NCBI RefSeq assembly: GCF_000787775.1
Contig: NZ_BBPM01000016.1
Location: 62,001-126,000 of the forward strand
DNA from: Streptacidiphilus carbonis
GTDB lineage: Bacteria > Actinomycetota > Actinomycetes > Streptomycetales > Streptomycetaceae
DNA: 64,000 nucleotides
Direction of reading: 5' to 3'
The position numbers were made by a program, and so were the translations under genes. Each line of letters begins with the position of its first letter. Positions within the stretch are counted from its first letter, which is position 1. The notes under the pieces are model-generated. The model made no database searches, was not told the origin of the DNA, and was given only the letters and a program-made list of their open reading frames with translations. Shown here piece after piece: positions 2,358-36,701 of this stretch.

Positions 2358-2399
2358 AGAAGTGGCCCGACTTGTCGAAGAAGTCGGCCTACAGTTGAG

Positions 2400-2968: not shown

Positions 2969-2993
2969 CTACACCAGAAAGGAGGTACCCCCG

Positions 2994-3158: not shown

Positions 3159-3164
3159 TGACTG

Positions 3165-3201: not shown

Positions 3202-3219
3202 CTGCGTGTCTAGGATGCC

Positions 3220-3564: not shown

Positions 3565-3615
3565 GGCCGCACCCTACGGCGAGGGTCGGACAATCGTGCG
3601 GGAGGCGGGGCCGGG

Positions 3616-3837: not shown

Positions 3838-3882
3838 GGCAGAACGCTATGCCCCGACGCCCTGGCGTGCGCAGCGAAACGG

Positions 3883-4131: not shown

Positions 4132-4178
4132 TGATCCATCATCCCAGTTGGCATAGTCCCCGCACCCCGGAGGAGGCG

Positions 4179-5767: not shown

Positions 5768-6001
5768 GAGGGTCTCCGCAGGGTGATGCCGCTGAGATGA
5801 CGGTGAGATGCCGCTGGCGTACCTCGTGGCCGAAATGGCCTACGCACCATGCTGACGTATGTGAGCACAGGGCGTGACCGAACGGTCTCAAAATCACTGA
5901 ACTGCGCGGAGTTTCCCGGCGAGTCCTTGACCCCGGGGGCGGTTCCACGGTGGCGCGTGTCTCTGGCCGGTTGTCGTATTTCGAGAGCAGCAGGGGGAGC
6001 A
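5768..6001. promoter_or_regulatory. Divergent intergenic region
   Basis: 234 bp between the leftward regulator gene and a rightward four-gene run, so it should hold promoters for both directions. A short GGCC-GAAAT-GGCC dyad (around 5830) and a locally AT-richer patch (CTCAAAATCACTGAA) are the only motifs I see. Confidence 0.35.
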
Positions 6002-6424
6002 GTGTCACAGCTAGGCCCGTCGTGGCCCACTTGGCTGGGCCCGATGCCGATCCCGACCCGGGGCACGCGCACGGCCCTGATCACGGTCGGCGGTGACCGC
6101 CCGGTGGTCCGCGTCCCCGACGCACTCGGCCTACCTGCCCTGGCGCGCCTGCTGGACGAGGAAGCGGACCGGGGCCTCGTCGGCCCTGTGCTGCATCACC
6201 GGCCGTCGCAGGTGACGTACTGGTGGGTGCGGCCGGGCTCCAGCGGCTCCTACCCGGACGGCTGCCGGCTGCTGGCCACGGACGCGCTGGTCGTCGTCCC
6301 GGATCCGCACGCCGACCACTGCGCGGTCGCGAGCTGGCTGTTCATGCCCGACCGCGAAGTCCTCACCGGCCCGGCGTGGCTTGCCGCCGCGCTGGATGCC
6401 GAGCGTACTTCCACCGCCGCCTGA
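6002..6424 (+). CDS. Hypothetical protein, first of a four-gene run
   Basis: A 140-residue protein starting at GTG with GGGGAG seven bases upstream. It is rich in short beta-type segments (TALITVGG, QVTYWWVRPGSSGSYP, DALVVVPDP) and has no recognised catalytic motif. The family is not identified. It opens a tight run of rightward small genes that continues to 7059. Confidence 0.65.
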   Translation: MSQLGPSWPTWLGPMPIPTRGTRTALITVGGDRPVVRVPDALGLPALARLLDEEADRGLVGPVLHHRPSQVTYWWVRPGSSGSYPDGCRLLATDALVVVPDPHADHCAVASWLFMPDREVLTGPAWLAAALDAERTSTAA

Positions 6425-6446
6425 CTCTCACCTTGGAGACACCCTC

Positions 6447-6638
6447 ATGCTCGAGACCTCATCCTTCGAGTCCGTCGACACGCAGTGCGAGATGTGCACC
6501 GAGCCGCCGTCCGGCACCGTCGTGCACCGGATAGGAGACGACGGGCCGATCGTCGACCTGGGCCACCTGACCTGCTACGCAGACGCGTTGGAGGCCATGC
6601 GGCGGCGCAGGCGCGAAGCTGCGGGGGCGGTGCGGTGA
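6447..6638 (+). CDS. Small Cys-containing protein
   Basis: A 63-residue protein. CEMC near residue 13 and a later HLTCY could form a small zinc site, and the tail is strongly basic (RRRRREA). TTGGAGA upstream serves as ribosome-binding site. Its stop codon overlaps the GTG of the next gene. Function unknown. Confidence 0.66.
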   Translation: MLETSSFESVDTQCEMCTEPPSGTVVHRIGDDGPIVDLGHLTCYADALEAMRRRRREAAGAVR

Positions 6639-6877
6639 TCCGCGACTTCCTCGGCAAGGACCGCCCCACGGATTACCCGCGCCCCGTGCAGCACCTGTCC
6701 ACGGGCCTGCCCCCACCACCGCCCGAACCGGTCCCGGGCTGTGCCCAATGCGCTCGGCTCGCCCGGGAGACGACCGCCCGGGCGCCGCGGACCGAGCTGA
6801 TCGACGCCCGCGTGCTACTGCAGCGGCACCTCACCGAGGACCACCAGCCTCCGGCCGGCGAGGGCTGCGAGCAGTGA
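6635..6877 (+). CDS. Small DFLGxDRP-family protein
   Basis: An 80-residue protein that opens IRDFLGKDRP, has a Pro-rich linker and a Cys pair (CAQCARLA), and ends with LLQRHLTEDH. A clear relative with the same start, Cys pair and HLTEDH end is encoded at 27242-27460 in the other element. Overlapping starts and stops (GTGA) join it to both neighbours. Function unknown; recurrence beside regulators suggests an accessory or regulatory role. Confidence 0.72.
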   Translation: MIRDFLGKDRPTDYPRPVQHLSTGLPPPPPEPVPGCAQCARLARETTARAPRTELIDARVLLQRHLTEDHQPPAGEGCEQ

Positions 6878-7059
6878 CCGTCGCCGACGCCCTTGACGCC
6901 CTCGCCTGGACGCTGGGGCATTGCGGCTGCTGCACGCAGCTCGCCGACGTGACCGCCACGGACGAGCCGGCATGCCGCGGCGAGTACTGCCGGACGTGCC
7001 TGACGGCGATCTGGACCCTGGCGCACGAGCGGCTTGCCGAGACTGAGGGCTGCCGGTGA
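6874..7059 (+). CDS. Small Cys-rich protein
   Basis: A 61-residue protein. CGCC near residue 17 and CRGEYCRTC around residue 35 could hold one zinc ion. It is the last gene of the overlapping run, starting at the GTG inside the previous stop. Not recognised. Confidence 0.66.
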   Translation: MTVADALDALAWTLGHCGCCTQLADVTATDEPACRGEYCRTCLTAIWTLAHERLAETEGCR

Positions 7060-7067
7060 GGGCGGGC

Positions 7068-7514
7068 TCAGCCGGCTGTGTCGCTGACCCAGGCCTGCCG
7101 CAGCAGCCCGTCGCCGACGATGCGCCGCAGGTATGCGTTGATCTGGTCGCGGAACCGTTCCGTCATGTGGTCGCGGTGGACACGCCACACCAGGTCGCCC
7201 GCGGTCTCGACGGCGAAGCAGAGCTTCCCGTCGGGCAGCAGGTCCGCGTCGACCAACTCGTAGCGGGCGCGGGCGACACCGCGGCCCTCGTTGCGTTCGG
7301 GCGCCACGGCCTCGGTGCTGGCGTCGGGCTGCAGCTGCCACTGGCCCGACTGCATGTGGTACCGCTTCGCCTCGTCGAGGTCGTCGATGAGAGCCTGCGT
7401 GATCTCGCCGGGCGCGCACCAGGTGACGATGTTGTCGCCGTCGATGGTGACGCGGCATGCCTCGCCCGGCTCCAGGAGTCCTGGCTCGGCGATGCGGTAG
7501 ACGGATGCGGGCAT
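7068..7514 (-). CDS. Hypothetical protein
   Basis: A 148-residue protein starting MPASVYRIAEPG. GGGGAGG sits 7 bases upstream of this ATG, so it is preferred over an in-frame start 19 codons earlier. Beta-rich N-terminus (CRVTIDGDNIVTWCAPGE), helical C-terminus (ERFRDQINAYLRRIV). It lies just downstream of a repressor-like gene on the same strand and may be co-transcribed with it. Function unknown. Confidence 0.62.
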   Translation of the reverse strand: MPASVYRIAEPGLLEPGEACRVTIDGDNIVTWCAPGEITQALIDDLDEAKRYHMQSGQWQLQPDASTEAVAPERNEGRGVARARYELVDADLLPDGKLCFAVETAGDLVWRVHRDHMTERFRDQINAYLRRIVGDGLLRQAWVSDTAG

Positions 7515-7574
7515 GTCGTCCTCCCCTGTGGCGCGGCGCGGGTCCATCACGATGCCAGGTCTGTGATCCACGGG

Positions 7575-7976
7575 CTAGGGTGCGTCGAGGGCCACGGACG
7601 CGACGGAGTCCGCGACAACCTTGTCAATCTCGTCGTCGCTGAGGCCCTCGATGCTCAGGATGACCTTGACCTTCTGGCCGGGCTTCGTGGGGTGCGGGCG
7701 CACGATGGCGCGGATGCCCAGCCACTGTTCGATGGCGACGATCGTGACCTCGCGCGGGTCCATGTCCATGCCCGTGGCGAGGGCTTCGAGGCGCATCGGC
7801 TTGGGGATCTCATTGAACGTGTTGTTTTCCAGCTGGTTGATCCAGGAACGGGACAGGGTGCTGTCGCCGTCGGGCAGCACGCACGCCTTGGCGAAGGCGT
7901 CCAGGTTGATCCCGTTGTCGGTGCGGTAGGCGTGGACCAGGTCGGACAGGTTCGTGCGGGGCGGCGGCTGGGCCAT
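7575..7976 (-). CDS. Repressor-like XRE-type protein
   Basis: A 133-residue protein. The N-terminal half has an HTH-like pattern (LSDLVHAYRTDNGINLDAFAK, then SRSWINQLENNTFNEIPKP), followed by LEALATGMDM and a small C-terminal domain ending in DDEIDKVVADSVASVAL. This fits a small phage or element repressor. A promoter with two dyads overlapping it lies about 100 bases upstream, consistent with autoregulation. The start chosen is the internal MAQPPP; an ATG 17 codons earlier is possible. Confidence 0.62.
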   Translation of the reverse strand: MAQPPPRTNLSDLVHAYRTDNGINLDAFAKACVLPDGDSTLSRSWINQLENNTFNEIPKPMRLEALATGMDMDPREVTIVAIEQWLGIRAIVRPHPTKPGQKVKVILSIEGLSDDEIDKVVADSVASVALDAP

Positions 7977-8072
7977 GCGTACCTGCCGTTCGGGGCGTCG
8001 GGGTGTGTCCAGGTTTCCGAGACACATGTTCGCTGCTGTTGGGCCATTGCGCCAGCCTTGGCGAAGGCGGGA

Positions 8073-8120
8073 TTTGGAAAATATCCCAAAAATCTAGACA
8101 CAGGGGCAAAGCCCTGTCAC
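8073..8120 (-). promoter_or_regulatory. Leftward promoter with overlapping operators
   Basis: Read leftward: -35 GTGACA, 18-base spacer, -10 TAGATT. A dyad with arms ACAGGG and CCCTGT fills most of the spacer. A second dyad, TTTGG/CCAAA, lies at the expected transcription start. This is a locally AT-rich patch in GC-rich DNA, and it faces the repressor-like gene that starts near 7976. Confidence 0.5.
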
Positions 8121-8207
8121 GATCCTTACCGTGCCGTAACGGAAGGCACTCAACCGGATCAGCGATCGGGAGCATCATGTCGGACTTATAGGGCAGTTGA
8201 AGCTGTG

Positions 8208-8567
8208 TCAGTCCTGCGGTTCACCCTCCGCCTCCGGGCACTCCTGCTCCTCGGCGAAGCGCGGCCAGTCCTCGGTGTACAGCCAGAACAGCGGCACTCG
8301 CAGGGCACGGGCGATACGGATGTGGAAGCTCAGGCCGAGGTCGCTGGAGCCGGCTTCCATGTGCTGGATCTGGCGGTCGCTGACGCCGGAAAGGTCCCGC
8401 AGTGCCTCTTGCCCGAGTCCGCGCCATTTGCGGAGGCCCGCGATGTTGCGGCCGACGCGCTGGATCTCCTGGCGCACGGACGGGTCGATTTGATCTTTCG
8501 GCACACAGCAACGCTGGAGGTGGAACCGCTGATAGACCACGAAAAGCTTTTCGGGTTTCTGGATCAT
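8208..8567 (-). CDS. Cro/C1-type XRE regulator
   Basis: A 119-residue protein with a full helix-turn-helix domain around residues 37-90: VGRNIAGLRKWRGLGQEALRD, then SGVSDRQIQHMEAG, and RIARALRVPLFWLY. The tail is acidic. With the 7575 protein it forms a two-regulator set typical of phage lysogeny control; here both are on the same strand as the integrase. No strong ribosome-binding site is seen before the ATG, so a later start is possible. Confidence 0.72.
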   Translation of the reverse strand: MIQKPEKLFVVYQRFHLQRCCVPKDQIDPSVRQEIQRVGRNIAGLRKWRGLGQEALRDLSGVSDRQIQHMEAGSSDLGLSFHIRIARALRVPLFWLYTEDWPRFAEEQECPEAEGEPQD

Positions 8568-8780
8568 GAAAGGGTTCGGCCTCCGCGGTTAGGTGTGCTC
8601 GCGGGCCACCCGCCCCGCTAGCGGTCGCATCCCGGCCCCCGCACCGACACCCCACCAACCCCTGTCGACCAGAGGCGCGCACGCCGCGCTCTGACGTCGC
8701 AGGCCCACAAGCGGGCTGCGGAAGGCGTTACTCGCGAGGTACGCCGCTCCGCCCATATGACGGAGACGCAGTCCAACAGG
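8568..8780. other. Intergenic stretch, no gene seen
   Basis: No ORF with a plausible ribosome-binding site is seen in this gap. It separates the integrase terminator from the XRE gene upstream end and probably carries that gene's promoter, though no clear -35/-10 pair stands out. Confidence 0.4.
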
Positions 8781-8806
8781 CCGCCCCCACCTTCCGGCGG
8801 GGGCGG
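8781..8806 (-). terminator. Terminator of the integrase gene
   Basis: 8-bp stem CCGCCCCC/GGGGGCGG with a 10-base loop, starting 5 bases past the integrase stop codon. Confidence 0.7.
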
Positions 8807-8811
8807 TCGCT

Positions 8812-9846
8812 CTACTTGAGATTGTCACCCGGACTCAGGTTCTTGTGGGCGTTTCTCGCTCTCTCGGCGCCGGCGCTGGCCGCATACCGGGCCAGCATCT
8901 GCCGGGACCGCCAGCCGGTGATCCGCATCAGGTCGTCCTCGTTGCCGCCGTTGACCTTCCACAGGTGCGCGAACGTATGCCTGAACTGGTGCGGGTGGAT
9001 GTGCCCGAGGCCGGCCTCTTCGGCCCGGCGCTCCAGCATGGTGCCCACGCCCCAGATCGTGAACGGCGCCTTGCTCTTGACCCCGACCCACAGCGGGGCG
9101 TCCGGCTCCGTGGAGCAGCCGTGCTTGGACAGGGCGCGCAGGTAGCGGTCGACGGCAGTCGCCGCGGTGCGGCCGATGGGCACCGCCCGCTCGCGGTTGC
9201 TCTTCCCCAGCACCCGCAGGACCTGCAGGTCGAGGTCGATGTCGCCGATGCTGCGCGCCGTCAGCTCGGTCAGGCGCACGCCAGTGTCGATGAACAGCAT
9301 GATGATCGCCAGGTCGCGGCGGGACGCGAAGTCCTTCCCGGAGCAGACGGTGATCAGCGCCTTCAGCGCGTTGTCGGAGATGACGGGCACCTCCTTCTCG
9401 CCCGGCGTCGGCGCCCGCATGCTCCGCATCGGGGAGCGGTCGAGCTCCTCCTCGTCGACGAGCCAGTTGAAGAACGTCTTCATCGGCCGGAACCTGACGT
9501 TTGCGGACGACGCGGAGGTGGTTTCGATCTCGTGGGTGATCCACGCCTCCAGATGCTCGCGGTGGACGGCGTCCAGAGTTTCGGGCGCGGGTAGGGCGTC
9601 GGGCTCCGGCGGCTTGTACGTGAGGATGTAGCGGCGCATCCGCTCGCCGGCCGTGCCGTAGACCTTGAGGGTCTGCTCGGCGACGTTGCGCGATTTCAGG
9701 GACCGCTTCCAGGAGTTGAGGAGGGGTCCGAAGTCGAAGGGGGCCGGCTGGTCGCTGCTGCTGAAACTCACGGCTGTGGTCATGTTCGTGAAGGTAGACC
9801 ACTGACCCCGTTGCTCATAGGCACTTGGCGGAAGAGCGATATGCAC
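8812..9846 (-). CDS. Tyrosine-type site-specific integrase
   Basis: A 344-residue protein with an N-terminal SAM-like core-binding domain (about residues 38-135) and a C-terminal catalytic domain. The catalytic set is present: R191 (TGVRLTEL), K215 (LGKSNRER), H286-x-x-R289 (HQFRHTF), W312 (GWRSRQML) and Y321 (ARYAAS). Xer/phage integrases use these residues for DNA strand exchange. The gene runs toward the element interior and starts 52 bases from the 3' end of a tRNA-Arg gene, its likely target. The first in-frame start is GTG; an ATG 21 codons later is an alternative, and neither has a good ribosome-binding site. Confidence 0.92.
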   Translation of the reverse strand: MHIALPPSAYEQRGQWSTFTNMTTAVSFSSSDQPAPFDFGPLLNSWKRSLKSRNVAEQTLKVYGTAGERMRRYILTYKPPEPDALPAPETLDAVHREHLEAWITHEIETTSASSANVRFRPMKTFFNWLVDEEELDRSPMRSMRAPTPGEKEVPVISDNALKALITVCSGKDFASRRDLAIIMLFIDTGVRLTELTARSIGDIDLDLQVLRVLGKSNRERAVPIGRTAATAVDRYLRALSKHGCSTEPDAPLWVGVKSKAPFTIWGVGTMLERRAEEAGLGHIHPHQFRHTFAHLWKVNGGNEDDLMRITGWRSRQMLARYAASAGAERARNAHKNLSPGDNLK

Positions 9847-9898
9847 AGGCCGGGCGGACTATGATGCTCCGCTGCACTGCTGGTCAGACTGGGTTTGT

Positions 9899-9970
9899 GC
9901 CCCCGGCAGGACTCGAACCTGCGGCCAAGTGCTTAGAAGGCACCTGCTCTATCCACTGAGCTACGGGGGC
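9899..9970 (-). tRNA. tRNA-Arg (anticodon UCU)
   Basis: A 72-nt cloverleaf with a 7-bp acceptor stem GCCCCCG/CGGGGGC, a D-arm AGCTCAGTGGATAGAGC, an anticodon loop CTTCTAA giving UCU, and a T-arm with GGTTCGAGTCC. No CCA is encoded. Its 3' end faces the integrase gene, so the attachment core probably lies in the T-arm and acceptor region; integration has left the tRNA sequence intact. Confidence 0.95.
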
Positions 9971-10156
9971 GGGGCGGGACAGACGCCGGGGTGGTGTGCC
10001 GGGCTGGGTCCTGCCGTGGGACAGGATAAGCGCCGGTTGGCTCCGCACCTGGTGTGCCGACGGGGGTGGTGTAGGCCTTAACCCCCGCTTGGGCGGTCTG
10101 ATAATCGCAGGTGGGATCCTTGGGCGCAGCGGTGCGGGAGCCAAGAGGGCGGGCTG

Positions 10157-10331
10157 TTGTCCACTCGTTACGGCGCTGCTGCCTCAGCCGTTATGGTCGG
10201 GCCGGTTACTGAGCGTGTACGGTCAGGGACCTGCGGGGGAGCTGGCCGCGACCGCCGTGACACACGGGTACGGGCCCCTAAGTACACCCGATCGAGTGAG
10301 GGCCTTTTCCACACCCTCCAGGTTGTCCACA
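10157..10331. promoter_or_regulatory. DnaA-box-like words upstream of ssb
   Basis: In the 446-bp gene-free gap between the tRNA and ssb I see TTGTCCACT (10157), TTTTCCACA (10305) and TTGTCCACA (10323). The last is the actinobacterial DnaA-box consensus and the other two are one-base variants. All have the same orientation. The gap also has to hold the ssb promoter. Nothing else was found in it. Confidence 0.4.
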
Positions 10332-10416
10332 GATCCGCGGCCACCGCCACCGCAGGGCGGCGTTCTGCTCCAGGCTGGTTCCCGGACAGCAGCTCACGGG
10401 ACAGGGGTACGGCGCG

Positions 10417-10599
10417 ATGAACAGCACGCTGGTGACGGTCGTGGGGCATGTGGCCTCGGATGTGCGGTACGCGACCACCGCGAACGGGGTGCCGGTGGCC
10501 AGCTTTCGGCTGGCGGCCACCGACCGGCGGTTCGACAAGCAGCGGGAGGTGTGGGTGGACGGGGACACCAGCTTCTACACCGTCTGGTCGTGCTCCTGA
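10417..10599 (+). pseudogene. ssb: 5' part of a split single-stranded DNA-binding protein gene
   Basis: The first 58 codons match an OB-fold SSB: TLVTVVGHVASDVRY, then GVPVASFRLAATDRRFD and DTSFYTVW. The frame then runs into element DNA and stops after two element-derived codons (CS). The rest of the gene resumes in frame at 36342, and together they would give a 177-residue SSB. Within Streptomycetaceae a second ssb elsewhere is common, which could explain tolerance of the disruption. Whether the 60-residue fragment is made is unknown. Confidence 0.88.
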
Positions 10600-10623: not shown

Positions 10624-12225
10624 ATGGCTCTCGGGAAACACCCCCTTCGCGTTGTCGGCGTACTTCGATTGAGTAACGAGACGGACGAGTCGACGTCCAT
10701 CGAGCGACAGCGCGCCCTCGTCAAGAACTGGGCCCAGGCCACCGGGAACGTGATGGTCGGCTGGTCGGAGGACGTGGACGTGTCCGGCGGCATCCGACCA
10801 TTCGCCCGCCCCGAGCTCGGCCCGTGGCTGGCCACCCCGGAGCGGTTCGACGCCCTAGTCGTATGGAAGCTCGACCGCCTCACCCGACGCGCCGCCCACT
10901 TCGTCGAGCTGCGGGACTGGGCCGAAGAGCACGGCATCGCCATCGTCAGCGTGACCGAGGGCTTCGACCTCAGCACCGCCATGGGCAAGATGTTCGCCAC
11001 GATCATCGCCGCGTTCGCCGAGGGCGAGCTGGAGACCATCCGGGAGCGCACCCGCGGCTCCCATGCCAGGCTCCGTCAGATCGGCCGCTACGCGGGCGCT
11101 CCGTGGCCCATGGGCTACCGCGCAGTGGATCTGCCCACCGGGGGCAAGACGCTCGTCCCAGAGCCCGAATACGCCGAGATCCTGCGCGGCATCATCCGCG
11201 ACGTCACCGAGGGCGTCTCCACCGCCGAGATCGCCCGGCGCCTCAACGCCGCGGGAGTGCTCACCTGGGGCGACAAGCGCGCGGAGCTGCGTGGTGCGGA
11301 GCCTGCGGAGACGCGTCAGCGGTGGACTGCGGACGTCGTGCAGCAGATCGTGCGGAACCCGGTCTGCGCCGGCTACCGGACCGAGAAGACCAAGGCGGAG
11401 GACGGCCGCTTCCTCCGGGCAGCGAAGATCGTCTATGACGAGGACGGCAACCCCGTGATGGCCACCACCACGCCGGTGGTGACGCCGTCGGAGTGGATGA
11501 AGGCCAGGACGGCGATGATGGCCCGCGGCACCACGGTGGAGCGTGCGGCCCGAGCTGAGTCGATGCTGCAGGGCGTCGCCAAGTGCGGCAGCTGCGGTAC
11601 CAACTTGTACCAGCATCGGCAGACCAAGAAGCTCAAGAGCGGGACCCGCGAGTACTGCTACTACCGCTGCCAGGGCGAACGAAAGGGGCACGACTGCGCC
11701 AGCCCCGCCAACATCGACGTCGACTCGGCCGAGCGCGAGGTCGGCGCCGCCCTGCTGTTCATCCTCGGGCAGAGCGAGATCACCCGGCTCGACCATGATC
11801 CCGGCGAGGACTACAGCGCCGAGATCATGGAGGCGCGTCGGCGGCTCGACGAGTTGGAGGATGACTACCTGGTGGGCAAGTACGACTCCCCCGAGGGCAA
11901 GCGCCGGTACGAGCGGCTGCACGCCCGCGCCTGCGACCAGGTCGACCGGCTGCTCGCCCTGCCGGTACGCCGGGCTTCGACCCGGACCGTGGGCAGCGGG
12001 GAGACGTACGGGCAGCGCTGGGAGCGGTGCGACCGACTGGAGCGGCGCGCGTTCTTGCTGGAGCAGGAGTTCGCCGTCACGGTCCACGCTCCGGGCACGC
12101 TGGAGCATCCGGTGACCGGGGAACTCAACACGGCCCCCGCGGTCGTCCTGGAGGTCCCTGAGAGGCTTCGTGGGACCCCTGGGGCTCCCGTGTTCACCGT
12201 GCCGCCGGGCACTCGACTGGGATAG
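10624..12225 (+). CDS. Large serine integrase
   Basis: A 533-residue protein. The catalytic domain starts VVGVLRLSNETDESTSIERQ with nucleophile Ser17, followed by LDRLTRR and a FATIIAAFAEGELE helix (about residues 90-145). A recombinase domain follows, then a zinc ribbon (CGSCG near 321 with YYRC and CASP around 345-360), a coiled-coil segment and a C-terminal tail. Large serine integrases join attP and attB through a 2-bp staggered cut and need a separate directionality factor to excise. Its position next to attL and the reconstructed attP dyad make it the enzyme that inserted element C into ssb. Confidence 0.95.
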   Translation: MALGKHPLRVVGVLRLSNETDESTSIERQRALVKNWAQATGNVMVGWSEDVDVSGGIRPFARPELGPWLATPERFDALVVWKLDRLTRRAAHFVELRDWAEEHGIAIVSVTEGFDLSTAMGKMFATIIAAFAEGELETIRERTRGSHARLRQIGRYAGAPWPMGYRAVDLPTGGKTLVPEPEYAEILRGIIRDVTEGVSTAEIARRLNAAGVLTWGDKRAELRGAEPAETRQRWTADVVQQIVRNPVCAGYRTEKTKAEDGRFLRAAKIVYDEDGNPVMATTTPVVTPSEWMKARTAMMARGTTVERAARAESMLQGVAKCGSCGTNLYQHRQTKKLKSGTREYCYYRCQGERKGHDCASPANIDVDSAEREVGAALLFILGQSEITRLDHDPGEDYSAEIMEARRRLDELEDDYLVGKYDSPEGKRRYERLHARACDQVDRLLALPVRRASTRTVGSGETYGQRWERCDRLERRAFLLEQEFAVTVHAPGTLEHPVTGELNTAPAVVLEVPERLRGTPGAPVFTVPPGTRLG

Positions 12226-15632: not shown

Positions 15633-15886
15633 TGGAGATGAGCGACACCATCTTCGAGGCCTTCATGGAGCAGTTCGAGGAGCACGTCCGCGCCGACGAG
15701 CGGCGCCGCGTGGAGGCCGAGGACAACGCTCGGTGGGAGCCGATCCGCCAGCAGCTGATCCGGTCCCGCAAGCAGCCGCCCTGGGCAGAGCTGAACGCCA
15801 CCTGGCAGGCGGCCCGCCAGCAGCGGTACGACGAAGCCGACGCGGCCCGCGCGGCGCGTGAGCACGACCTGCGGGAGTCCGCGTGA
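15632..15886 (+). CDS. Small charged helical protein
   Basis: An 84-residue protein with a strong AAGGAGGT ribosome-binding site 9 bases upstream. Very rich in Glu, Arg and Gln, probably one long helix (FEEHVRADERRRVEAEDN). Its stop overlaps the primase-helicase start, so it may be made in step with that enzyme. Function unknown. Confidence 0.72.
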   Translation: MEMSDTIFEAFMEQFEEHVRADERRRVEAEDNARWEPIRQQLIRSRKQPPWAELNATWQAARQQRYDEADAARAAREHDLRESA

Positions 15887-17475
15887 CCGTCGACCGGAAC
15901 GACGACGGTCAGCCGGACGTCATGCCCGACTACCGAGACGGGGTGGAGAAGGCGCCCTTCTGGGACGAAGACCCGAACGACCTCGGTGACTATCCCGACT
16001 ACCTGCGCGAGGCGGACGAGGCCGAAGCCCGCGACACGCGGTACCAAGGAGAACCGCCGGACGAGGTGGACCCGGCGGAGGGCGTGGCTCGGGAGGAGCA
16101 GATCCTCCCGAGCCCGACCAATCCGATGGCCGTCGCACGTGAGCTCCTGCCTGCGTGGCTGCACGGGCGAGCTCTGAAGCTCCGCCGGTGGCACGGAGAT
16201 TGGGTGCTCTGGGTAGGACCGCACTGGATTGCGGTCGACGGCGATGCGATGCGGGCTGACCTGTACCCGCGGCTGGAGCACGCGACCTATCAGTACGTCG
16301 ACAGGAAGGGCGAGCAAAAGACTGCTCCCTGGGCGCCGACATCCGGCAAGGTCGGCAACCTCATGGAGGCTCTGGCGTCCATCGTCCACCTTCCTTCCGA
16401 TGTTGAGACCCCCGGATGGTTGGCCGCTCCGGAGTCGACTGCCAGCCGGGCGCCCGTGATCGCCTGCCGCAACGGGTTGCTGGACATCTCGACGCGACAG
16501 CTGCAGCCGCTGACGCCTCTGTACTTCAACCGGGTCTCCGTCCCGTTCGACTACGTCGCCGACGCGCCCGTGCCCGTTCGCTGGATCGGATTCCTGTCCT
16601 CCCTGTGGCCCGGGGATCCCGAGGCGGTCTTGGCCGTGCAGGAGTGGTTCGGCTACATCCTCTCGGGGCGCACCGACCTGCAGAAGATGATGCTGATCAT
16701 CGGGCCGCCGCGCTCCGGGAAGGGCACTATCGCCCGAACCCTGACCGCGCTGGTCGGCAAGGCGAACATGGCTGGCCCGACCCTGGCTGGCCTGTCGACG
16801 AACTTCGGCCTGTCGCCACTGCTGGACAAGACGCTGGCCATCGTCTCCGACGCCCGCCTCCCCCGGATCGGCACCGAGGTCGTGGTCGAGCGCCTCCTGT
16901 CCATCTCGGGCGAGGACACCCTCGACGTGGACCGCAAGTACCGCGACCCGTGGACCGGCCGCATCCCGGTCCGGTTCCTGCTGCTGTCCAACGAGCTGCC
17001 CGCCTTCGCGGACGCATCCGGCGCTATCGCCAGCCGGCTGATCGTGCTGACGATGGTGAACTCGTTCCTCGGCAAGGAGGACCGAGCCCTGGAGGGCGAC
17101 CTCAACCGGGAGCTGCCGGGCATCTTGAACTGGTCGCTCGACGGCCTGCAGAGCCTCATCGAGCGCGGCCGGTTCAGCGAGCCGAAGTCCTCGGCCGACG
17201 CGGTCGCCATGCTCGCCGCCTCGGTCTCGCCGATCAAGGCGTTCCTCGGAGAGCTGTGCACCGTCGGTCCCGAGCACCGCGTACCGACCGACCTTCTGTA
17301 CGAGGCCTGGGCTGACTGGTGCAAGGACTCGGGCCGCGATCACAAGGGCACCAAGGAGACCTTCGGCCGCAACCTGCTGGCCGCAGTTCCCGGGTTGCGA
17401 CAGACCCGGCCGCTCGTGAACAAGGTCAAGGTCCGGATGTACCAGGGCGTCACGCTCGGGCAGGTCGGGTCATGA
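15883..17475 (+). CDS. P4-type primase-helicase (SF3 helicase) replication protein
   Basis: A 530-residue protein. The N-terminal 230 residues include a D5-type region (WIGFLSSLWPGDPEAVLAVQ) leading into an SF3 helicase core with Walker A GPPRSGKGT (about residues 271-279), a later DARLPRIG segment and the arginine-rich sensor region FLLLSNELP. The C-terminal domain is winged-helix-like. This is the phage/plasmid primase C-terminal (P4 alpha) family, which opens and unwinds the origin. No separate zinc-binding primase domain is obvious, so it may act only as helicase and initiator. It stops 8 bp before an iteron array that is its natural candidate target. Confidence 0.9.
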   Translation: MTVDRNDDGQPDVMPDYRDGVEKAPFWDEDPNDLGDYPDYLREADEAEARDTRYQGEPPDEVDPAEGVAREEQILPSPTNPMAVARELLPAWLHGRALKLRRWHGDWVLWVGPHWIAVDGDAMRADLYPRLEHATYQYVDRKGEQKTAPWAPTSGKVGNLMEALASIVHLPSDVETPGWLAAPESTASRAPVIACRNGLLDISTRQLQPLTPLYFNRVSVPFDYVADAPVPVRWIGFLSSLWPGDPEAVLAVQEWFGYILSGRTDLQKMMLIIGPPRSGKGTIARTLTALVGKANMAGPTLAGLSTNFGLSPLLDKTLAIVSDARLPRIGTEVVVERLLSISGEDTLDVDRKYRDPWTGRIPVRFLLLSNELPAFADASGAIASRLIVLTMVNSFLGKEDRALEGDLNRELPGILNWSLDGLQSLIERGRFSEPKSSADAVAMLAASVSPIKAFLGELCTVGPEHRVPTDLLYEAWADWCKDSGRDHKGTKETFGRNLLAAVPGLRQTRPLVNKVKVRMYQGVTLGQVGS

Positions 17476-19484: not shown

Positions 19485-20063
19485 ATGACCCACCCAGCCA
19501 CGACAGCCGCTAGCGGAACACCACCGGACATGATCAGCGCAGCGCACGTTGCGGGCCCGTCCCACGCGCGCGGGAAGGTGGTGGAGGCGATGCCGCTGAC
19601 GGATCAGCAGCGTTTGACGATCTGCGAGCGCGCTGACGCGGGCATGTCGGTGCGCCAGATCGCGGCCGAGTTGTCCGTCGCGCCGAGCACGGTGACGCGG
19701 GCCGCCAAGAGCCTCGGTGTGGTCTTCGACCGGTCGGCGACCGAGCGGGCGACGGCGGCCCGGGTCGCGGACGGCCGTGCCCGGCGTGCCGAGCTCGCCG
19801 AGCGGCTCATCGAGCTGGCCAACGGCGAGCTGGACCAGTTGTCACGCCCGTGCCGGGTGCACGCGTTCGTGGGCGGACAGGCACCGACGTTCCTGGAGCA
19901 CGTGCTGCCGCAGCCGGACGCCACGACGCGGCTGGCGATCGCCCGGACCGCAGCGGTGTTCCTGGACCGGCACGTGCGACTCCTCGACGCGGACCGCACG
20001 GCCGCCGACAGCTGCTCGGATGTCGACGCATGGCTGTCGGCGCTGACGGGAGGCGCCCTGTGA
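19485..20063 (+). CDS. HTH protein, copy 1 of a duplicated cassette
   Basis: A 192-residue protein. After a 35-residue variable N-terminus comes a helix-turn-helix (MSVRQIAAELSVAPSTVTRA), then FDRSATERATAARVADGRAR, and a C-terminal domain with FVGGQAPTFLEHVLPQPDA and AAVFLDRHVRLL. The pattern recalls small HTH proteins of actinophages annotated as terminase small subunits, but no large terminase is present here. A close relative lies at 20308. Probably DNA-binding; role unknown. Confidence 0.8.
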   Translation: MTHPATTAASGTPPDMISAAHVAGPSHARGKVVEAMPLTDQQRLTICERADAGMSVRQIAAELSVAPSTVTRAAKSLGVVFDRSATERATAARVADGRARRAELAERLIELANGELDQLSRPCRVHAFVGGQAPTFLEHVLPQPDATTRLAIARTAAVFLDRHVRLLDADRTAADSCSDVDAWLSALTGGAL

Positions 20064-20314
20064 GCGTGGACCGGGCCACCCGCGACGCCCTGGCCGTGAT
20101 GGCAGCGCAGCTGCGTGGTGACGAGCAGGGCGTGGCCGCGCTGATCGGGGACTGTGACCTTCCGGCGGTGGCGGTGGTCCTGGCGGACTACGCCGCCGAG
20201 GCCGTGCGCTTGGCGGGCGGCCGGGAGGTCGGTGACGGGGATCTCGCCGAGCTCCTCGGGGTGCACCTGAGGCGCCTCGCGGGCGGCAGCACCCGGGGTG
20301 GTGGGTCGTGCTGA
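20060..20314 (+). CDS. Small helical partner, copy 1
   Basis: An 84-residue protein that starts at the GTG inside the previous stop. AAQLRGDEQGVAALIGDC and AVVLADYAAEAVRLAGG resemble the 20804 product (GARLRGDVDGERVLLGDC), so it is the partner gene of the duplicated cassette. It has no catalytic motif. Confidence 0.75.
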   Translation: MSVDRATRDALAVMAAQLRGDEQGVAALIGDCDLPAVAVVLADYAAEAVRLAGGREVGDGDLAELLGVHLRRLAGGSTRGGGSC

Positions 20315-20814
20315 GCGATGAGCAGCGGCTGCGCCTGTGCGAGCTCGCGGAGGGCGGCATGTCAGTGCGGCAGATCGCCGAGCATCTGGGTGTGGCGCCG
20401 TCGACGGTGACCCGGAACGCGAAGGGCCTCGGAGTCCTGTTCGACCGGTCGGCCACGGAGGCGGCTACCGCGGCGAGGATCGCGGACGGGCAGGCCCGGC
20501 GTACCCAGTTGGCGTCGAGGCTGCTGGACTTGGCGAACAGCGAGCTGGACCGGCTCTCGCGCCCGTACCGGATGTCGTCGTTCGTGGGCGGCCAGGCGCC
20601 GGCCTATCTGGAGCATGTGGTGCCGCAGCCGGATGCCGTGTCGCGTCTTGCGATCATCCGTGGCGCGGCGACGCTGCTGGATCGTCACGTCCGGCTGGCC
20701 GGGATGGCGGGCAGTGAGGGCCTGGAGTCGGCGAAGAGCCTGCTCGGTTCCCTGGCGCAGAGCCTGGGCGAATACCAGACCGACCGGGATGCGGAGGCCG
20801 ACGGTGCGAGTTGA
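20308..20814 (+). CDS. HTH protein, copy 2 of a duplicated cassette
   Basis: A 168-residue protein. The same order as copy 1: MSVRQIAEHLGVAPSTVTRN, FDRSATEAATAARIADGQAR, FVGGQAPAYLEHVVPQPDA and LLDRHVRLAG, with a different C-terminal tail (AKSLLGSLAQSLGEYQ). It lacks copy 1's N-terminal extension. The copies have diverged at many positions, so the duplication is not recent. Confidence 0.84.
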   Translation: MLSDEQRLRLCELAEGGMSVRQIAEHLGVAPSTVTRNAKGLGVLFDRSATEAATAARIADGQARRTQLASRLLDLANSELDRLSRPYRMSSFVGGQAPAYLEHVVPQPDAVSRLAIIRGAATLLDRHVRLAGMAGSEGLESAKSLLGSLAQSLGEYQTDRDAEADGAS

Positions 20815-22727: not shown

Positions 22728-23027
22728 ATGGAGCCGATGATCAGGGAGCGCCGTCTCCCGCCGCCCGAGCTCGGGCCGATGCTCGCCGCCGCCCGGATGC
22801 GGGCCGGGCTGCGCGGGCGCGAGGCGGCACGGCTGCTCGGTCTGTCCCAGAGCTACCTGGTGCGGTTGGAGTCCGGGCAGCGGGTGCCCTCCATGACGGT
22901 CGCCGGCAGGCTGGCCGAGCGGTTGGGGCTGAGCGAGGACGAGCGAGCGGCGCTACTGACCGCGGCGGTCGACGACGCCGGCGCGGACCATCCGGCCCGG
23001 ACCACAGCCGCAACCCACCCCCGGTGA
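22728..23027 (+). CDS. XRE-type HTH regulator
   Basis: A 99-residue protein with a clean XRE domain: LGPMLAAARMRAGLRGREAA, LLGLSQSYLVRLESGQRVPS and AERLGLSEDERAAL. GAGAGGAG precedes the ATG. It stands alone after a 155-bp gap and upstream of the membrane protein and Cre-like genes, which it may control. Confidence 0.83.
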   Translation: MEPMIRERRLPPPELGPMLAAARMRAGLRGREAARLLGLSQSYLVRLESGQRVPSMTVAGRLAERLGLSEDERAALLTAAVDDAGADHPARTTAATHPR

Positions 23028-23090: not shown

Positions 23091-23549
23091 GTGGCCAACA
23101 TCAGCTTCGGGATCTTCATGCTGGTCTTCGTGACTTGCATGTCCGTGTTCATGGTGCGGGCCGCATGGCTTCACTGGATCGACTCCGATCGCGCACCAGA
23201 GATGCCCGGAGTCCGCACGACGAACCCGTCCGTGATCAGGGGACACGAAAGGGGGATCGTGCCCCTCGCAGGCTGGCTGGCACTGACGAACGCATCAATC
23301 CTGATCGGCTTGATCAACAGCCAGGCCACGACGGGCGTCGCCCTAGTTCTTCTGTTCAGCTCCTTCGTGATGCTGCTCCTGCACGCCTCGGTCGCATGGT
23401 TCAACTGGCCCAAGTTCCTCGTACCGCCGCACCTGCGTCACGACACCGGGTCAATCGTCGAGTGGTACGAGCACCGCCGAGACCTCCGCGCAGCCCTCGC
23501 CGAGGCCGCCGAGCGTGATGCCCTAGGACATCGTTCTGACCCTCGATAA
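23091..23549 (+). CDS. Small membrane protein
   Basis: A 152-residue protein with three likely membrane segments: residues 5-27 (FGIFMLVFVTCMSVFMV), about 58-77 and about 79-98 (VALVLLFSSFVMLLLHASV), with a charged C-terminal cytoplasmic tail. GTG start. Its last codons lie inside the lox-like palindrome. The function is unknown; small membrane proteins of this size are frequent in spread loci of actinomycete elements. Confidence 0.72.
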   Translation: MANISFGIFMLVFVTCMSVFMVRAAWLHWIDSDRAPEMPGVRTTNPSVIRGHERGIVPLAGWLALTNASILIGLINSQATTGVALVLLFSSFVMLLLHASVAWFNWPKFLVPPHLRHDTGSIVEWYEHRRDLRAALAEAAERDALGHRSDPR

Positions 23550-23569
23550 GCCATGTTATCGAGGGTCAG
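23536..23569. repeat. 34-bp loxP-architecture palindrome
   Basis: Arms CTGACCCTCGATA and TATCGAGGGTCAG (13 bp, perfect) flank the asymmetric 8-bp spacer AGCCATGT, the 13-8-13 plan of P1 loxP; counting one more pair gives 14-6-14. It lies 17 bases before a Cre-like recombinase gene. I found no second copy in the window, as expected for a site used to resolve multimers of a circle. A transcription terminator is the main alternative, but there is no T tract after it. Confidence 0.68.
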
Positions 23570-23573
23570 GCCG

Positions 23574-23579
23574 GTAGAC
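23574..23579 (+). promoter_or_regulatory. Probable -10 for a leaderless recombinase transcript
   Basis: TAGACT ends 7 bases before the recombinase ATG, the spacing of a leaderless start. The -35 position falls within the right arm of the palindrome, so recombinase bound there could repress its own gene. Confidence 0.45.
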
Positions 23580-23586
23580 TGATGGC

Positions 23587-24585
23587 ATGTCAGCCGAACT
23601 GGTCCCCGCCTCCGTGCCGCTGCCCGCCACGGTCGACTCCACCGTCTCGGACAGCACCCGGGACCGGCTCGACCGCTCGGTGCCGGAGAATACCCGCCGC
23701 GCCTACGCCCGCCAGTGGAACATCTTCACCGACTGGTGCGGCTCGACCGGGCGCACCCCGATGCCGGCCACCGCGCACACCCTCGCGGAGTACGTCAGCC
23801 ACCTCGCCGACCTCGACCGCGCCCCCAGCACCATCGAGCAGGCCATCGCAGCGATCCGCACCGCCCACCGGACCGCCGGGCACCGCGGCCTGCCCGAGAC
23901 CGACGCCGCCCTGGCCGTACTGAAGGTCCACCGACGGGACCGGGCCGCCGCGGGCAAGCGGAAGCGGAAGGCTCCGCCGGTCACCCTCAAGCCGCTCCGG
24001 GCGATGATCGAGGCCACCGACCCGAAGACGCCGAAGGGGCTGCGGGATCGCGCCCTGATCGTGCTCGGCTTCGCGGCGATGGCCCGCCGCTCCGAGCTCG
24101 CCGCGCTGCAGATCGAGGACATCCGGTTCACCGACGACGGGCTCACCGTTCTGGTGCGGTCCAGCAAGACCGACCAGGACGCTGTCGGTGCCGAGGCCCA
24201 CATCCCGCACGGCGTCCACCCCGACACCGACCCCGTCCGCGTGGTCCGCGCCTGGCTCCAGGTCCTGGCGGAGCACGACGTCACCGCGGGTCCGCTGCTG
24301 CGCCGCATCAACCGCTGGGGCCAGCTGCAGCCCGGCGGGATGTCCGGGGCGGCCGTGAACGAGGCGGTGCAGCGGCTCGCCGAGGCCGCGGGCCTGGACG
24401 GCGCGGCGGACTTCACCGCGCACGGTCTGCGCGCCGGCGGTCCAACCGAGGCTGCGAAGGCCGGTCACCCGACCAGCTTCATCGCCGAGCACGGCCGCTG
24501 GTCCAAGACCAGCCCGCAGGTGCTGGAGTACATCCGGCCCGTCGAAAAATGGCGGGACAACCCGATGCGCGGCATCGGGCTGTGA
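23587..24585 (+). CDS. Cre-like tyrosine recombinase
   Basis: A 332-residue protein close in length to P1 Cre (343). Catalytic residues are R168 (ARRSEL), K194 (SSKTDQ), H279-x-x-R282 (HGLRAG), W305 (GRWSKTSP) and Y315 (LEYIRP). The Trp before the nucleophile and the YIR ending match Cre (GGWTN, NYIRN) rather than the His of XerC/D. The N-terminal domain shares the Cre feel of NTRRAYARQWNIFTDWC and GRTPMPA. Cre resolves phage-plasmid dimers at loxP. Here a serine integrase already handles integration, so a separate resolvase role is plausible. Confidence 0.88.
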   Translation: MSAELVPASVPLPATVDSTVSDSTRDRLDRSVPENTRRAYARQWNIFTDWCGSTGRTPMPATAHTLAEYVSHLADLDRAPSTIEQAIAAIRTAHRTAGHRGLPETDAALAVLKVHRRDRAAAGKRKRKAPPVTLKPLRAMIEATDPKTPKGLRDRALIVLGFAAMARRSELAALQIEDIRFTDDGLTVLVRSSKTDQDAVGAEAHIPHGVHPDTDPVRVVRAWLQVLAEHDVTAGPLLRRINRWGQLQPGGMSGAAVNEAVQRLAEAAGLDGAADFTAHGLRAGGPTEAAKAGHPTSFIAEHGRWSKTSPQVLEYIRPVEKWRDNPMRGIGL

Positions 24586-29375: not shown

Positions 29376-31532
29376 TCAAAACTCGTCGGAGTCGCCCTCC
29401 GCGGCCCGCTCGGCAAGGGCTTCCAAGACCCGATCCCGGCTGACGACCATGTTGCCGTTGGACTTGTACGGCGCCGCCCCGAACGGCTCCAGTGCCTGCT
29501 TGAGATCGGATGCGGTCCAGCTGCGGTACTCGGCCGGGTTGAGGACGGTCAGCCGCTGGCGGATGTCGTCGGTGCCGACGCGGGCCTCGTCGCCGATCAC
29601 AGTGGCGATGTCGGCCAGGTGGTCGACCGGCGCGGCCGGCTCGACGCCGCGGGTGGTGACGCCGGAGCGCAGGGCCTTGGCGCGGTCGGTGATCTGCATG
29701 GCCTCCTCGTCGTTGACGTAGTGCGTGCGCACGTTCAGCGACACCTGGCCGGGCGGGAGCTGCACGCCGTCGCCGGCGACGACCAGCTGTCCCTTGTCCA
29801 GGCCCTGCCGCAGCTTGTGCGGCGCAGCACCCGCCTCGACCGGGGACTCGCCGAGCGCCATCTTGGCCTGCGACTCCGTGCCCAGGACCAGCGCGGCCCG
29901 GATGTGGTTGCCCTCGCGCGAACGCTTGGGCAGGTTCTGGTCGGTCGGGTCCTGGGTGCCCTCCCAGATCGTGACGTTCACCGCCCGCCCCTGGTCGTGG
30001 ATGCCCTTCACGGCCTGGAAGTAGCGGCTGAGGGCCTTGGCGCCGCCGTAGGGCCGCTTGTCCACGCCGATGGCGCCGGAGCCGTAGGCGACCTGGGCCT
30101 CGTCGACGATGACGACCAGGGGCGGGAACACGGTGCCCTTGGGTGCCATCAGGCGGCGCTGCTGCTCGGCGAACACGGCCTCGACCATCTCGGTCACGGC
30201 GATGACGTGCTCGTCGGTCGGGCCCTCGATCAGGACCGAGGCCAGGCCCTCGAACATCTCCCAGTCCCCAACGCCCTTGAGGTCCCCGATGCGGAAGTCG
30301 ACGGTGGGGTCGAGGGCGAGCCACAGCGCCAGGGCCCGCAGGCTGGCGGTCTTGCCCTGGTTGGACAGGCCGGTCACCAGCACGTGTTTCTGGAACAGGC
30401 TGAGGCTGGCGGCGTCGCCACGCAGGTCCAGGCCCCAGGGTGCGCGGCCTGTCTTGTAGCTGGCGGTCATGGTGGGGTCGGTGACCAGCGGCGAGGCGGG
30501 CACGGGCTCGTCCAGGGCGCCACTGTCCGCGATCCACAGACGCACGGTGCGGGCGGCAGGGGCGACGCTGATGTACAGCTCATGCTCGTGGCGGCCCATG
30601 TTCTCCGCCAGCTTCCGGCGCCGGTTCATGACGTCCTCGGTCGACGAGCCGGTGGGCAGATGGACGTCGACCTCGACCCCGCAGCCGGCCATGGTGATCG
30701 GGCCGAGCATCGCGGCCCCGGCGTCGCCCATCTCCTTGATGGAGGTGCGCAGCGGGGCGACGCCCAGGTCGCGCAGGGCGACGACGACGATCGACGGGGT
30801 GATCGGCGCGCCCTCATTGCTGAGCTTGCCGCCGGGCAGCATCCACGCCGGAGCCGCGCCGTGCTTACGGCCGACCGCCCACAGCGCCGCCAGGGCGACG
30901 AACGGGACCGCGGTCAGGGTCGGGTCCCACAGGAACGCGACGACGGCGCAGACCCACGCCACGGTGTCGACGGCGCCGGTGACCGGGACCAGGACGTCGG
31001 CGATCTGGTGCTCGGCAATCGCCATGACGATGCCGATGACGAGGAGCGTGCCGACGCCCAGGACGGTCGCGATGGCGGCGCCGCGGGCGACGTGGATCGG
31101 TGCGGCGAGCAGGTCCATGCGGCGCCGGTGGCGGGCGGCGCGGAACGAGGCCCCGCGCGCTTCCCACTCCTGCGCGGCCTCGACGTTGCCGACGGCCTCC
31201 GCCGCGCGGATCATCCGCTCGTACCGGGCCGCTGTACGCCCGTCCCAGGCCCGGCGGCCGGCGACCAGTCCGCCGGCGACCACGAACGAGGGGTGACGGA
31301 CTAGGAAGCGGCCGAGCGCGGCCGTGCGCTCATGGGTGGCAGCCACCCGCACGGCACGGGTGCTACGCCGAACCAGCCCCGGGCGCCCCGGCGGAGCGCT
31401 GATGGCCTCGGCGGCCAGCTGCTCGGCGCCGGTGCTGATGACGGTGCCCTCGATGGGCTGGCGCGGCCCGGGGACCGTCTTGTCGAGCCGGACGGGCTGC
31501 GGGTGCCCGTTGACCCTGTCGGTGATGGCCAT
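29376..31532 (-). CDS. traB: TraB/FtsK-type DNA translocase
   Basis: A 718-residue protein. Two membrane segments (about 149-172 and 188-222), then an FtsK/SpoIIIE motor with Walker A GLSNQGKT (388-395) and Walker B VVIVDEAQ (473-480), and a C-terminal winged-helix-like domain (about 640-718) suited to reading DNA repeats. TraB hexamers move double-stranded plasmid DNA between mycelial compartments without a relaxase. The start chosen overlaps the stop of the upstream membrane-protein gene (ATGA). Candidate recognition repeats lie just past its stop codon. Confidence 0.9.
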   Translation of the reverse strand: MAITDRVNGHPQPVRLDKTVPGPRQPIEGTVISTGAEQLAAEAISAPPGRPGLVRRSTRAVRVAATHERTAALGRFLVRHPSFVVAGGLVAGRRAWDGRTAARYERMIRAAEAVGNVEAAQEWEARGASFRAARHRRRMDLLAAPIHVARGAAIATVLGVGTLLVIGIVMAIAEHQIADVLVPVTGAVDTVAWVCAVVAFLWDPTLTAVPFVALAALWAVGRKHGAAPAWMLPGGKLSNEGAPITPSIVVVALRDLGVAPLRTSIKEMGDAGAAMLGPITMAGCGVEVDVHLPTGSSTEDVMNRRRKLAENMGRHEHELYISVAPAARTVRLWIADSGALDEPVPASPLVTDPTMTASYKTGRAPWGLDLRGDAASLSLFQKHVLVTGLSNQGKTASLRALALWLALDPTVDFRIGDLKGVGDWEMFEGLASVLIEGPTDEHVIAVTEMVEAVFAEQQRRLMAPKGTVFPPLVVIVDEAQVAYGSGAIGVDKRPYGGAKALSRYFQAVKGIHDQGRAVNVTIWEGTQDPTDQNLPKRSREGNHIRAALVLGTESQAKMALGESPVEAGAAPHKLRQGLDKGQLVVAGDGVQLPPGQVSLNVRTHYVNDEEAMQITDRAKALRSGVTTRGVEPAAPVDHLADIATVIGDEARVGTDDIRQRLTVLNPAEYRSWTASDLKQALEPFGAAPYKSNGNMVVSRDRVLEALAERAAEGDSDEF

Positions 31533-32020: not shown

Positions 32021-33412
32021 TCACAGGTATCCCTCGGTTCCGGCCTGGGCTTCGGCTTCCTGGGCCTGCTTGGCGGCACGGGAAAGGACGGTGCGGATGT
32101 AGGCGGTATCCACGGCGAGGCCGCTCTGAGCCAGGTGCAGGGCGATGTCGGCGGGCGTCGCCTCGGGGTGAAGCATCGATGATGCGGCGAGGATCGCGGC
32201 CGTCTTCGTCGCCGGGAGCGCGGCATCGTCCGACTCCGTGAGCTGGGGCGCATCATCAGGCGCATCACCGTGCATCACAGGCACCGGCCCCACCTGACCA
32301 GTCATGGCGGCGAGGTACTGGGCGACGTCGCCGGCGAGGTCGAACCACTCCGTGGCGCCAACCCGCTGCTCGGCGAAACGCAGGTGGAGATCCCGCTCCG
32401 TGCGCGCGTTGCCGTGGACGACCAGGAGCACGTCCTCCATACGCAGGCACAGGGTGTCGATGCGCCGCTTGAGGTTCTGCGACGTGCCGATCTTGACCCG
32501 GTCGCCGTTCTGCACGAAGTACACGATCGGCGGGTGCGCCGAGCCCAGGAGCGCAGCCACGTCGGCGACCCGGACCCCTGGCGTTCCCGCCAGCTCCCCG
32601 GTGGGCTGACGCCGCGACGCCTTGCGCTTCTGCTCCCTGTCGAGCGCGGCATGGACGACCTTGCCGAAGCTCTCCCGGGTGGCGTCGAGTTCCCGACGCA
32701 GCTGGGCACTGGTCCGCGAATCGGCCTGCAGCGGCTCACCCTTGGCGCCGACCGCGACGTGCTGCCCTGCGGCGGTGCCGACGCCCGGAGTACCGCGGCG
32801 GCTGGCTTCCATTGCGAGCAGCTGCGCGACGGCGTTGTCCTCGGTGCGCTGGACCTGTCGGCGGGCGGAGGCGACGGCGAGCTTCGCGGATGCCTCGGAC
32901 AGGGTGATCTCGATCCACTGCCGGTCGGCTGCGGTGAGGGTGGGCTCGGTGACCTTCGCGGACACCCACCACAGCAGCTTGGCCAGGATGGAGACGGTGG
33001 CCCCGACGCAGGCGAGTGCGAGAGACCGCGACCGCATCCCTTCAACGAACAGGGCCGTCACGGTGACGGCGAGCAGGACCCACGAAAGCCTGTCTGCGAC
33101 GCGTCGCCGGTCCGGCCGGTGGCGTGCGATGAACGCCAGCCCGAGGGCGGTGAGCCACGACAGGTCGAACAGGGAGGCGGCGAGGTAGGACACCCAGGTC
33201 GCGCCCAGGAGAGCGGCGATGCTGGTCGTACTCCAGATCACGGAGATCAGGGTGAGGGCCAGGACGATGCCGTGGACGCCCCGGACGACGATGGCGTCCC
33301 AGTCCTTGGGGGCCACGGGGACCAGGGTTTCCCTTGGGATGTCGACCATGACGGTGGTGCCGTCGATGGTGTGCGGCGTCCTGATGTACTCGGTGACGCT
33401 TTTGAACTTCAC
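32021..33412 (-). CDS. SpdB/DUF2637-like membrane protein fused to a GIY-YIG-type domain
   Basis: A 463-residue protein. Four membrane segments lie within residues 41-150 (VHGIVLALTLISVIW, ATWVSYLAASLF, LSWVLLAVTVTALFV, LALACVGATVSIL), a plan seen in SpdB/DUF2637 proteins of Streptomyces elements. A coiled linker leads to a GIY-YIG-like domain at about 296-360 (VYFVQNGDRVKIGTSQNLKR, then TERDLHLRFAEQRVGATEWF), with R316 and E339 as likely key residues. The last 100 residues are helical. A membrane-anchored DNA-binding or nicking role in transfer is inferred. Confidence 0.8.
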   Translation of the reverse strand: MKFKSVTEYIRTPHTIDGTTVMVDIPRETLVPVAPKDWDAIVVRGVHGIVLALTLISVIWSTTSIAALLGATWVSYLAASLFDLSWLTALGLAFIARHRPDRRRVADRLSWVLLAVTVTALFVEGMRSRSLALACVGATVSILAKLLWWVSAKVTEPTLTAADRQWIEITLSEASAKLAVASARRQVQRTEDNAVAQLLAMEASRRGTPGVGTAAGQHVAVGAKGEPLQADSRTSAQLRRELDATRESFGKVVHAALDREQKRKASRRQPTGELAGTPGVRVADVAALLGSAHPPIVYFVQNGDRVKIGTSQNLKRRIDTLCLRMEDVLLVVHGNARTERDLHLRFAEQRVGATEWFDLAGDVAQYLAAMTGQVGPVPVMHGDAPDDAPQLTESDDAALPATKTAAILAASSMLHPEATPADIALHLAQSGLAVDTAYIRTVLSRAAKQAQEAEAQAGTEGYL

Positions 33413-36343: not shown

Positions 36344-36701
36344 GTGGAGGTGGTTGGCGGAGAACGTGCTCGCCTCCGTCGGACGGGGCGATCCACTGCT
36401 GGTGACCGGGCGGATGCGGGTGAGGGAGTGGGACAACGGGGAGGGGAAGGCCCGGGGCTACGCCGCCGAGATCGAGGCGACTGCGATCGGGCACGATCTG
36501 TCTCGCGGAACCTCGGCGTTCCGCCGGGCCGTGCGGGCGCGGCCCGAACTGGTGGCCAAGGCCTCGACGCGGGCCGCCGGGCCGGAGGAGGTACTGCCCG
36601 GCGACCAGGGAAAGGGGACACCGGCCGATCCGCGGTCCGCGGCACCCGCTCCGGTCCTGGTAGGAGCCGCCGCGGCGGGGGACGGCGAACCGGGTGTGTA
36701 A
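36342..36701 (+). pseudogene. ssb: 3' part of the split ssb gene
   Basis: 119 codons in frame with the fragment at 10417. They carry the second half of the OB fold (WLAENVLASVGRGDPLLVTG, RMRVREWDNGEGKARGYAAE, IEATAIGHDLSRGTSAFRR) and a low-complexity tail. No start codon or ribosome-binding site suits independent translation, though a TTG at 36354 exists. It lacks the usual acidic DDDIPF-type C-terminal tip, as in some Streptomyces SSB paralogues. Confidence 0.86.

Follow-up and report, generated by a model that had tools for sequence, protein, structure and literature searches.

A Cre/lox-type recombinase and its putative site, related to MrpA/mrpS, in an integrative element of Streptacidiphilus carbonis: a probable module for the resolution of element copies

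Few recombinase/site pairs of the Cre type have been tested, and locating the native site of an enzyme is a recurring difficulty (PMC4957104). MrpA, from plasmid SCP2 of Streptomyces coelicolor, has been described as resolving SCP2 multimers (PMC3218068). In E. coli, MrpA together with mrpS made from two oligonucleotides multimerised a plasmid (PMC4685060), which suggests that MrpA needs no Streptomyces factor, and a mutational analysis of mrpS (Warth and Altenbuchner 2013) is cited in PMC6486577. We compared this system with a recombinase gene and the palindrome that precedes it in a 64,000-nucleotide stretch of the genome of Streptacidiphilus carbonis, called here the window. SCP2.07c was taken as the gene of MrpA, being the sole gene annotated as putative integrase/recombinase in SCP2, and its product showed 36% identity to the window protein over 329 residues (4-332). 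The gene is preceded by CTGGCTCTTGATAA-CGTTCC-TTCTCTAGAGCCAG, the only such site in SCP2 and putatively mrpS. The centre of this site lies 34 bp before the gene start, and the centre of the window site is found at the same distance.

The putative lox-like recombination site of the window (23536-23569, forward strand) reads CTGACCCTCGATAA-GCCATG-TTATCGAGGGTCAG, an exact palindrome with inverted arms of 14 bp around an asymmetric spacer of 6 bp. The initial annotation of this DNA had given it arms of 13 bp and a spacer of 8 bp; the total of 34 bp stands and the division does not, because one symmetric pair had been counted into the spacer. The asymmetry of the spacer and the distance of 17 bp between the palindrome end and the ATG of the recombinase at 23587 agree with that earlier description. 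Only two perfect palindromes of this size (arms of at least 14 bp, spacer of at most 10 bp) were counted in the 64 kb and none in 20 resampled windows. When up to 3 mismatches were allowed, the site occurred once in the whole 8.46-Mb genome.

The gene that follows (23587-24585, forward strand) encodes a simple tyrosine recombinase of Cre/MrpA type with 332 residues, in which Pfam detected the phage-integrase catalytic domain and, weakly, SAM-like core-binding domains. By sequence, the best match among solved structures was Tre, an engineered Cre variant (E 2e-17, near full length), and the best natural one was Cre itself (E 5e-16, over nearly full length). With a profile built from 29 homologues Cre reached an E value of 2e-39, with XerD second at 6e-16. 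An AlphaFold model, for which the plasmid-derived rows of the alignment were left out, had a pLDDT of 90.6, and in the fold search ranks 1-33 were all Cre or Tre structures, followed by archaeal Xer enzymes. The nearest solved relative is Cre, ahead of Xer, lambda Int and integron IntI. The R-K-H-R-W-Y catalytic set is complete (R167, K194, H279, R282, W305, and Y315). R167, K194, R282, and Y315 do not vary among the 29 homologues, and E170, H279, and W305 hardly vary; W305 ahead of Y315, read as Cre-type catalytic residues in the initial annotation, were both correctly placed. Sequence and fold mark the protein as a simple tyrosine recombinase of Cre-like type whose active site is intact.

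How enzyme and site go together was analysed by a blind search of 395 Streptomycetaceae genomes with the pattern TGACCCTCGATAA-N6-TTATCGAGGGTCA, allowing up to 3 mismatches. The site was found in 7 genomes, in one place each, and the reversed pattern gave no match over the same genomes. These are exactly the 7 genomes in which the best recombinase reaches 70% identity or more to that of the window, counting one broken copy whose two pieces are 76% and 90% identical. In six of them the site precedes the matched reading frame by about 20-60 bp at most, and in the seventh (G292) by about 330 bp. The arms are near-constant and the spacers are GCCATG, GCCGAG, GGAAGG, GCCAAC, GTCAAG, and CCTGAC, the last being the reverse orientation of GTCAGG. 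This is what is expected for the core site of a tyrosine recombinase, since the spacer only has to match that of its partner. In three close relatives (L050, L051, and L092) the site is 250-470 bp from the gene with the spacer in the opposite orientation (CCTGAC). A recombinase copy (G070:C4:7030377-7031432) is split into two frames and one palindrome base of its site is changed; perhaps gene and site are decaying together.

The comparison was extended to a wider family of 101 loci, whose identities in local alignments run from about 29% to 100%. A core scan for TAA-Nn-TT[AC] (n between 3 and 11), requiring 10 or more of 14 pairs and a position within 400 bp upstream, found the palindrome in 43 of the 101, with n=6 in 40 and n=7 in 3; no locus matched with any other n in this range, and the downstream and shuffled controls gave 0. 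The initial annotation had proposed to look for the same palindrome beside homologous recombinases and had held that its lack in homologues, or its variation independently of the enzyme, would speak against the pair; homologues do carry an equivalent palindrome, and the arms follow the relatedness of the recombinases. With a slightly looser core applied to the whole fetched stretch a palindrome was seen in 60 of the 101 loci, and the other 41, among them a clade in which the arrangement differs or has been lost, had no recognisable site in that stretch. A laxer cut (9 pairs, n=6) gave 44 loci within 400 bp upstream versus 1 downstream, in a scan of even spacer centres that places 7-bp spacers outside its reach. 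Across these 44 loci the similarity of the half-sites outside the core tracks the identity of the recombinases (Mantel r 0.66, 0 of 5000 permutations), a correlation that supports co-evolution and does not prove it, since relatedness alone contributes. The consensus of 88 half-sites is roughly CTGACTCTCGATAA, and spacers vary among near-identical arms. Spacers of 7 bp instead of 6 bp were seen in L037, L126, L144, L146, and L147. Against 72,556 plasmids the window 34-mer gave 3 weak matches, 2 of them close to a tyrosine recombinase. On a Hymenobacter plasmid the site, with a 7-bp spacer, is directly upstream of a recombinase with 34.8% identity; on a Pseudorhizobium plasmid, also with a 7-bp spacer, a toxin-antitoxin pair stands between it and the recombinase further downstream (27%). 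With these two matches the site format spans Actinomycetota, Pseudomonadota, and Bacteroidota.

The pair is carried by an integrative element resembling the AICEs, whose ends were set against the uninterrupted ssb gene of a relative (G002). On the left the match to this gene runs up to 10592, and on the right it resumes at 36345 with the very next base of the intact gene, so that an element of 25.75 kb (10593-36344) is precisely inserted in ssb, of which the 5′ part (attL side, 10417-10599) and the 3′ part (attR side, 36345-36701) are both on the forward strand. Just inside the left end is a large serine integrase with Resolvase, Recombinase, and Zn ribbon domains (10669-12225, forward), probably the integrase of the element, in line with the earlier proposal that a separate serine enzyme handles integration. 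A P4-family primase/helicase-like replication protein (15883-17475, forward) and a FtsK/TraB-like DNA translocase (29376-31532, reverse), the latter a probable conjugal transfer protein assigned by similarity only, complete the Int, Rep, and Tra hallmarks of AICEs on one integrated element. Near the recombinases of relatives the integrase is of the serine type in G210 and of the tyrosine type in G035 and G164, which indicates that the recombinase/site module travels with different integrases. Other observations concern the surroundings. In a member of the same genus a serine recombinase (G046:C1:2927604-2929454) lies about 1.4 kb from ssb and perhaps belongs to another element targeting this gene. 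Next to the FtsK/TraB gene, the protein of 32021-33412 (reverse) matches MUG113/T5orf172 (GIY-YIG-like) in its C-terminal part and is hydrophobic, probably membrane-spanning, in its N-terminal part. The ORFs 19590-20063 and 20308-20814 are adjacent and clearly similar helix-turn-helix genes (tandem paralogues), and a short ORF comes after each of them. To the left of the ssb element there is a separate island (1-10400) with a tyrosine integrase (8812-9783, reverse) beside a tRNA-Arg (9897-9970, reverse); the island also encodes a glycoside hydrolase of Rv2525c-like type (659-1552). In IMG/VR, one contig of the genome, 98.7 kb long, is listed as viral.

The DNA itself shows the site and its pairing with a cognate enzyme, the catalytic residues, the presence of one copy only, and an integrase of another kind, and cleavage, resolution, and repression of the enzyme's own leaderless promoter by site occupancy belong to the mechanism that we infer. 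Each of the two 14-bp half-sites would be bound by one recombinase protomer, and two occupied 34-bp sites would synapse and swap strands across the 6-bp spacer, for which the spacers of the partners must match. As there is one site per element, recombination would take place between two copies of the element, and dimers of the excised, presumably replicating circle, or copies integrated in tandem, would be converted to monomers, integration into ssb being left to the serine integrase. We consider the pair very probably a Cre/lox-type module for site-specific recombination within the MrpA/mrpS family. Resolution of dimers, which the initial annotation had proposed for the excised circle, or of tandem copies of the element is the most likely role, as best we can infer, because of the one site per element, the separate integrase, and the kinship with MrpA. 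Against this reading stand the 41 of 101 loci that show no recognisable site in the fetched stretch and the three relatives (L050, L051, and L092) whose site is 250-470 bp away. Cre-type reactions are reversible, and the pair might instead serve mainly for fusion or exchange among elements or plasmids that share the site. The multimerisation of the mrpS plasmid by MrpA in E. coli (PMC4685060) points in the same direction. Such cointegration is nevertheless unlikely as the main role, considering that the spacers differ among relatives with similar arms, which should block exchange between elements. Intramolecular deletion is, moreover, usually favoured.

A regulatory function of the palindrome has also to be weighed. 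The initial annotation had placed the arms over a predicted promoter; no consensus sigma-70 promoter was found before the recombinase, and what holds is a conserved -10 box just after the site. This box, TAGACT (23575-23580, forward strand), is located 6 nt before the ATG and probably belongs to a leaderless promoter. The right arm ends 5 bp upstream of it, which would place the -35 region inside the site. The layout TANNNT-N6-ATG, a few bases past the right arm, is present in 5 of 5 close-clade members that have the site in place and the start aligned, the window included; it is not general, as MrpA and many relatives do not have it. This arrangement suggests, for the close clade, a leaderless transcript whose promoter is covered by the bound recombinase, so that the occupied site would repress the recombinase's own promoter; autoregulation is plausible in that clade only. 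An XRE-type HTH regulator is encoded at 22728-23027 (forward strand), and related genes occur near the recombinase in 4 relatives. It could be argued that the palindrome is only an operator for autorepression of the recombinase, or an RNA hairpin terminating the upstream gene, considering that it overlaps the probable promoter, that the TAA stop of the upstream ORF falls inside its left arm and that it is foldable (DNA z -5.7). Against this, no T-tract follows the stem when an intrinsic terminator (GC-rich stem with T run) is sought at the palindrome, so that the stem acting only as a terminator, foreseen by the initial annotation as a contrary outcome, is not what is seen, and a search of Rfam with the palindrome gave no match. 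Moreover, the site is retained beside different upstream genes, its spacer is fixed in length (6 or 7) and variable in sequence as in strand-exchange sites, and MrpA is preceded by a site of the same type, all of which leaves an operator or hairpin alone very improbable. Scarcely credible, too, is that the Cre-like enzyme would be the integrase of the element and the palindrome its attachment site, even if it is a tyrosine recombinase within an integrative element with integrases as its PHROG and Pfam matches: the site lies inside the element, with about 12.9 kb to either end, it has no second copy in this genome and is absent from those searched genomes that lack the recombinase, and the precise insertion in ssb beside the large serine integrase makes it very probable that this is another enzyme's task, so that integration at the lox-like site was rejected.

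Beyond the resolution module itself, a broader picture can be drawn tentatively, and we regard it as possible rather than probable: a large recombinase/lox family, of at least three bacterial phyla, whose arms change in step with the enzyme and whose freely drifting spacers act as identity tags of the replicon that restrict resolution to like with like, the site being fused in the close clade to the leaderless promoter so that its occupancy would set the dose of enzyme. From the rule of a TAA-N6/7-TTA/C palindrome upstream, whose arms vary with the enzyme, dozens of pairs are predicted that are probably orthogonal, among which the window pair has perfectly symmetric arms and comes from a GC-rich host. 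Recombinase specificity could be learned from this natural co-variation of enzymes and sites, and the pair suggests how integrative elements with serine integrases keep their excised or tandem copies single.

By comparison with P1 Cre/loxP, the locus is alike in the 34-bp site beside the gene and in the simple two-domain enzyme with all catalytic residues. Cre is, however, only about 22% identical to the window protein in the structural alignment, and the arms are unrelated to those of loxP, so that the equal length and unrelated sequence described in the initial annotation are confirmed; P1 is also a phage-plasmid and the window element is not. The site SloxP of the SCre/SloxP system of Shewanella sp. 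ANA-3, which we take to be CTCGTGTCCGATAACTGTAATTATCGGACATGAT, was found intact in NC_008573. It shares the GATAA-N6-TTATC core with the window site, in a comparison that concerns the sites only, whereas the outer arm bases differ and Shewanella belongs to another host phylum. Like the AICE family (pSAM2, SLP1, and others), the element combines an integrase with genes for replication and for FtsK/TraB-like transfer in a single chromosomal unit, but it differs by its serine integrase into ssb and by the added Cre/MrpA-type module. With MrpA/mrpS the likeness extends to the 34-bp format GATAA-N6-TTATC/TTCTC and to one site per replicon. The arms differ, CTGACCCTCGATAA in the window versus CTGGCTCTTGATAA in SCP2, as do the spacers; MrpA is encoded by a plasmid, the window recombinase by an integrative element that has a serine integrase, and no equivalent leaderless -10 box was seen before mrpA, unlike in the window. 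In the tree the window clade and the MrpA clade are distinct and have different arms, and the window protein falls outside the MrpA subclade; on this phylogenetic evidence it is a family relative of MrpA and not its orthologue. The pair had been called a new Cre/lox-type pair: the type is right, and the kind is not new, being the same family as the characterised MrpA/mrpS. It is a new, divergent member of the known Cre/lox, MrpA/mrpS kind, and what it adds beyond one more member is a rule from which the sites of dozens of relatives can be predicted.
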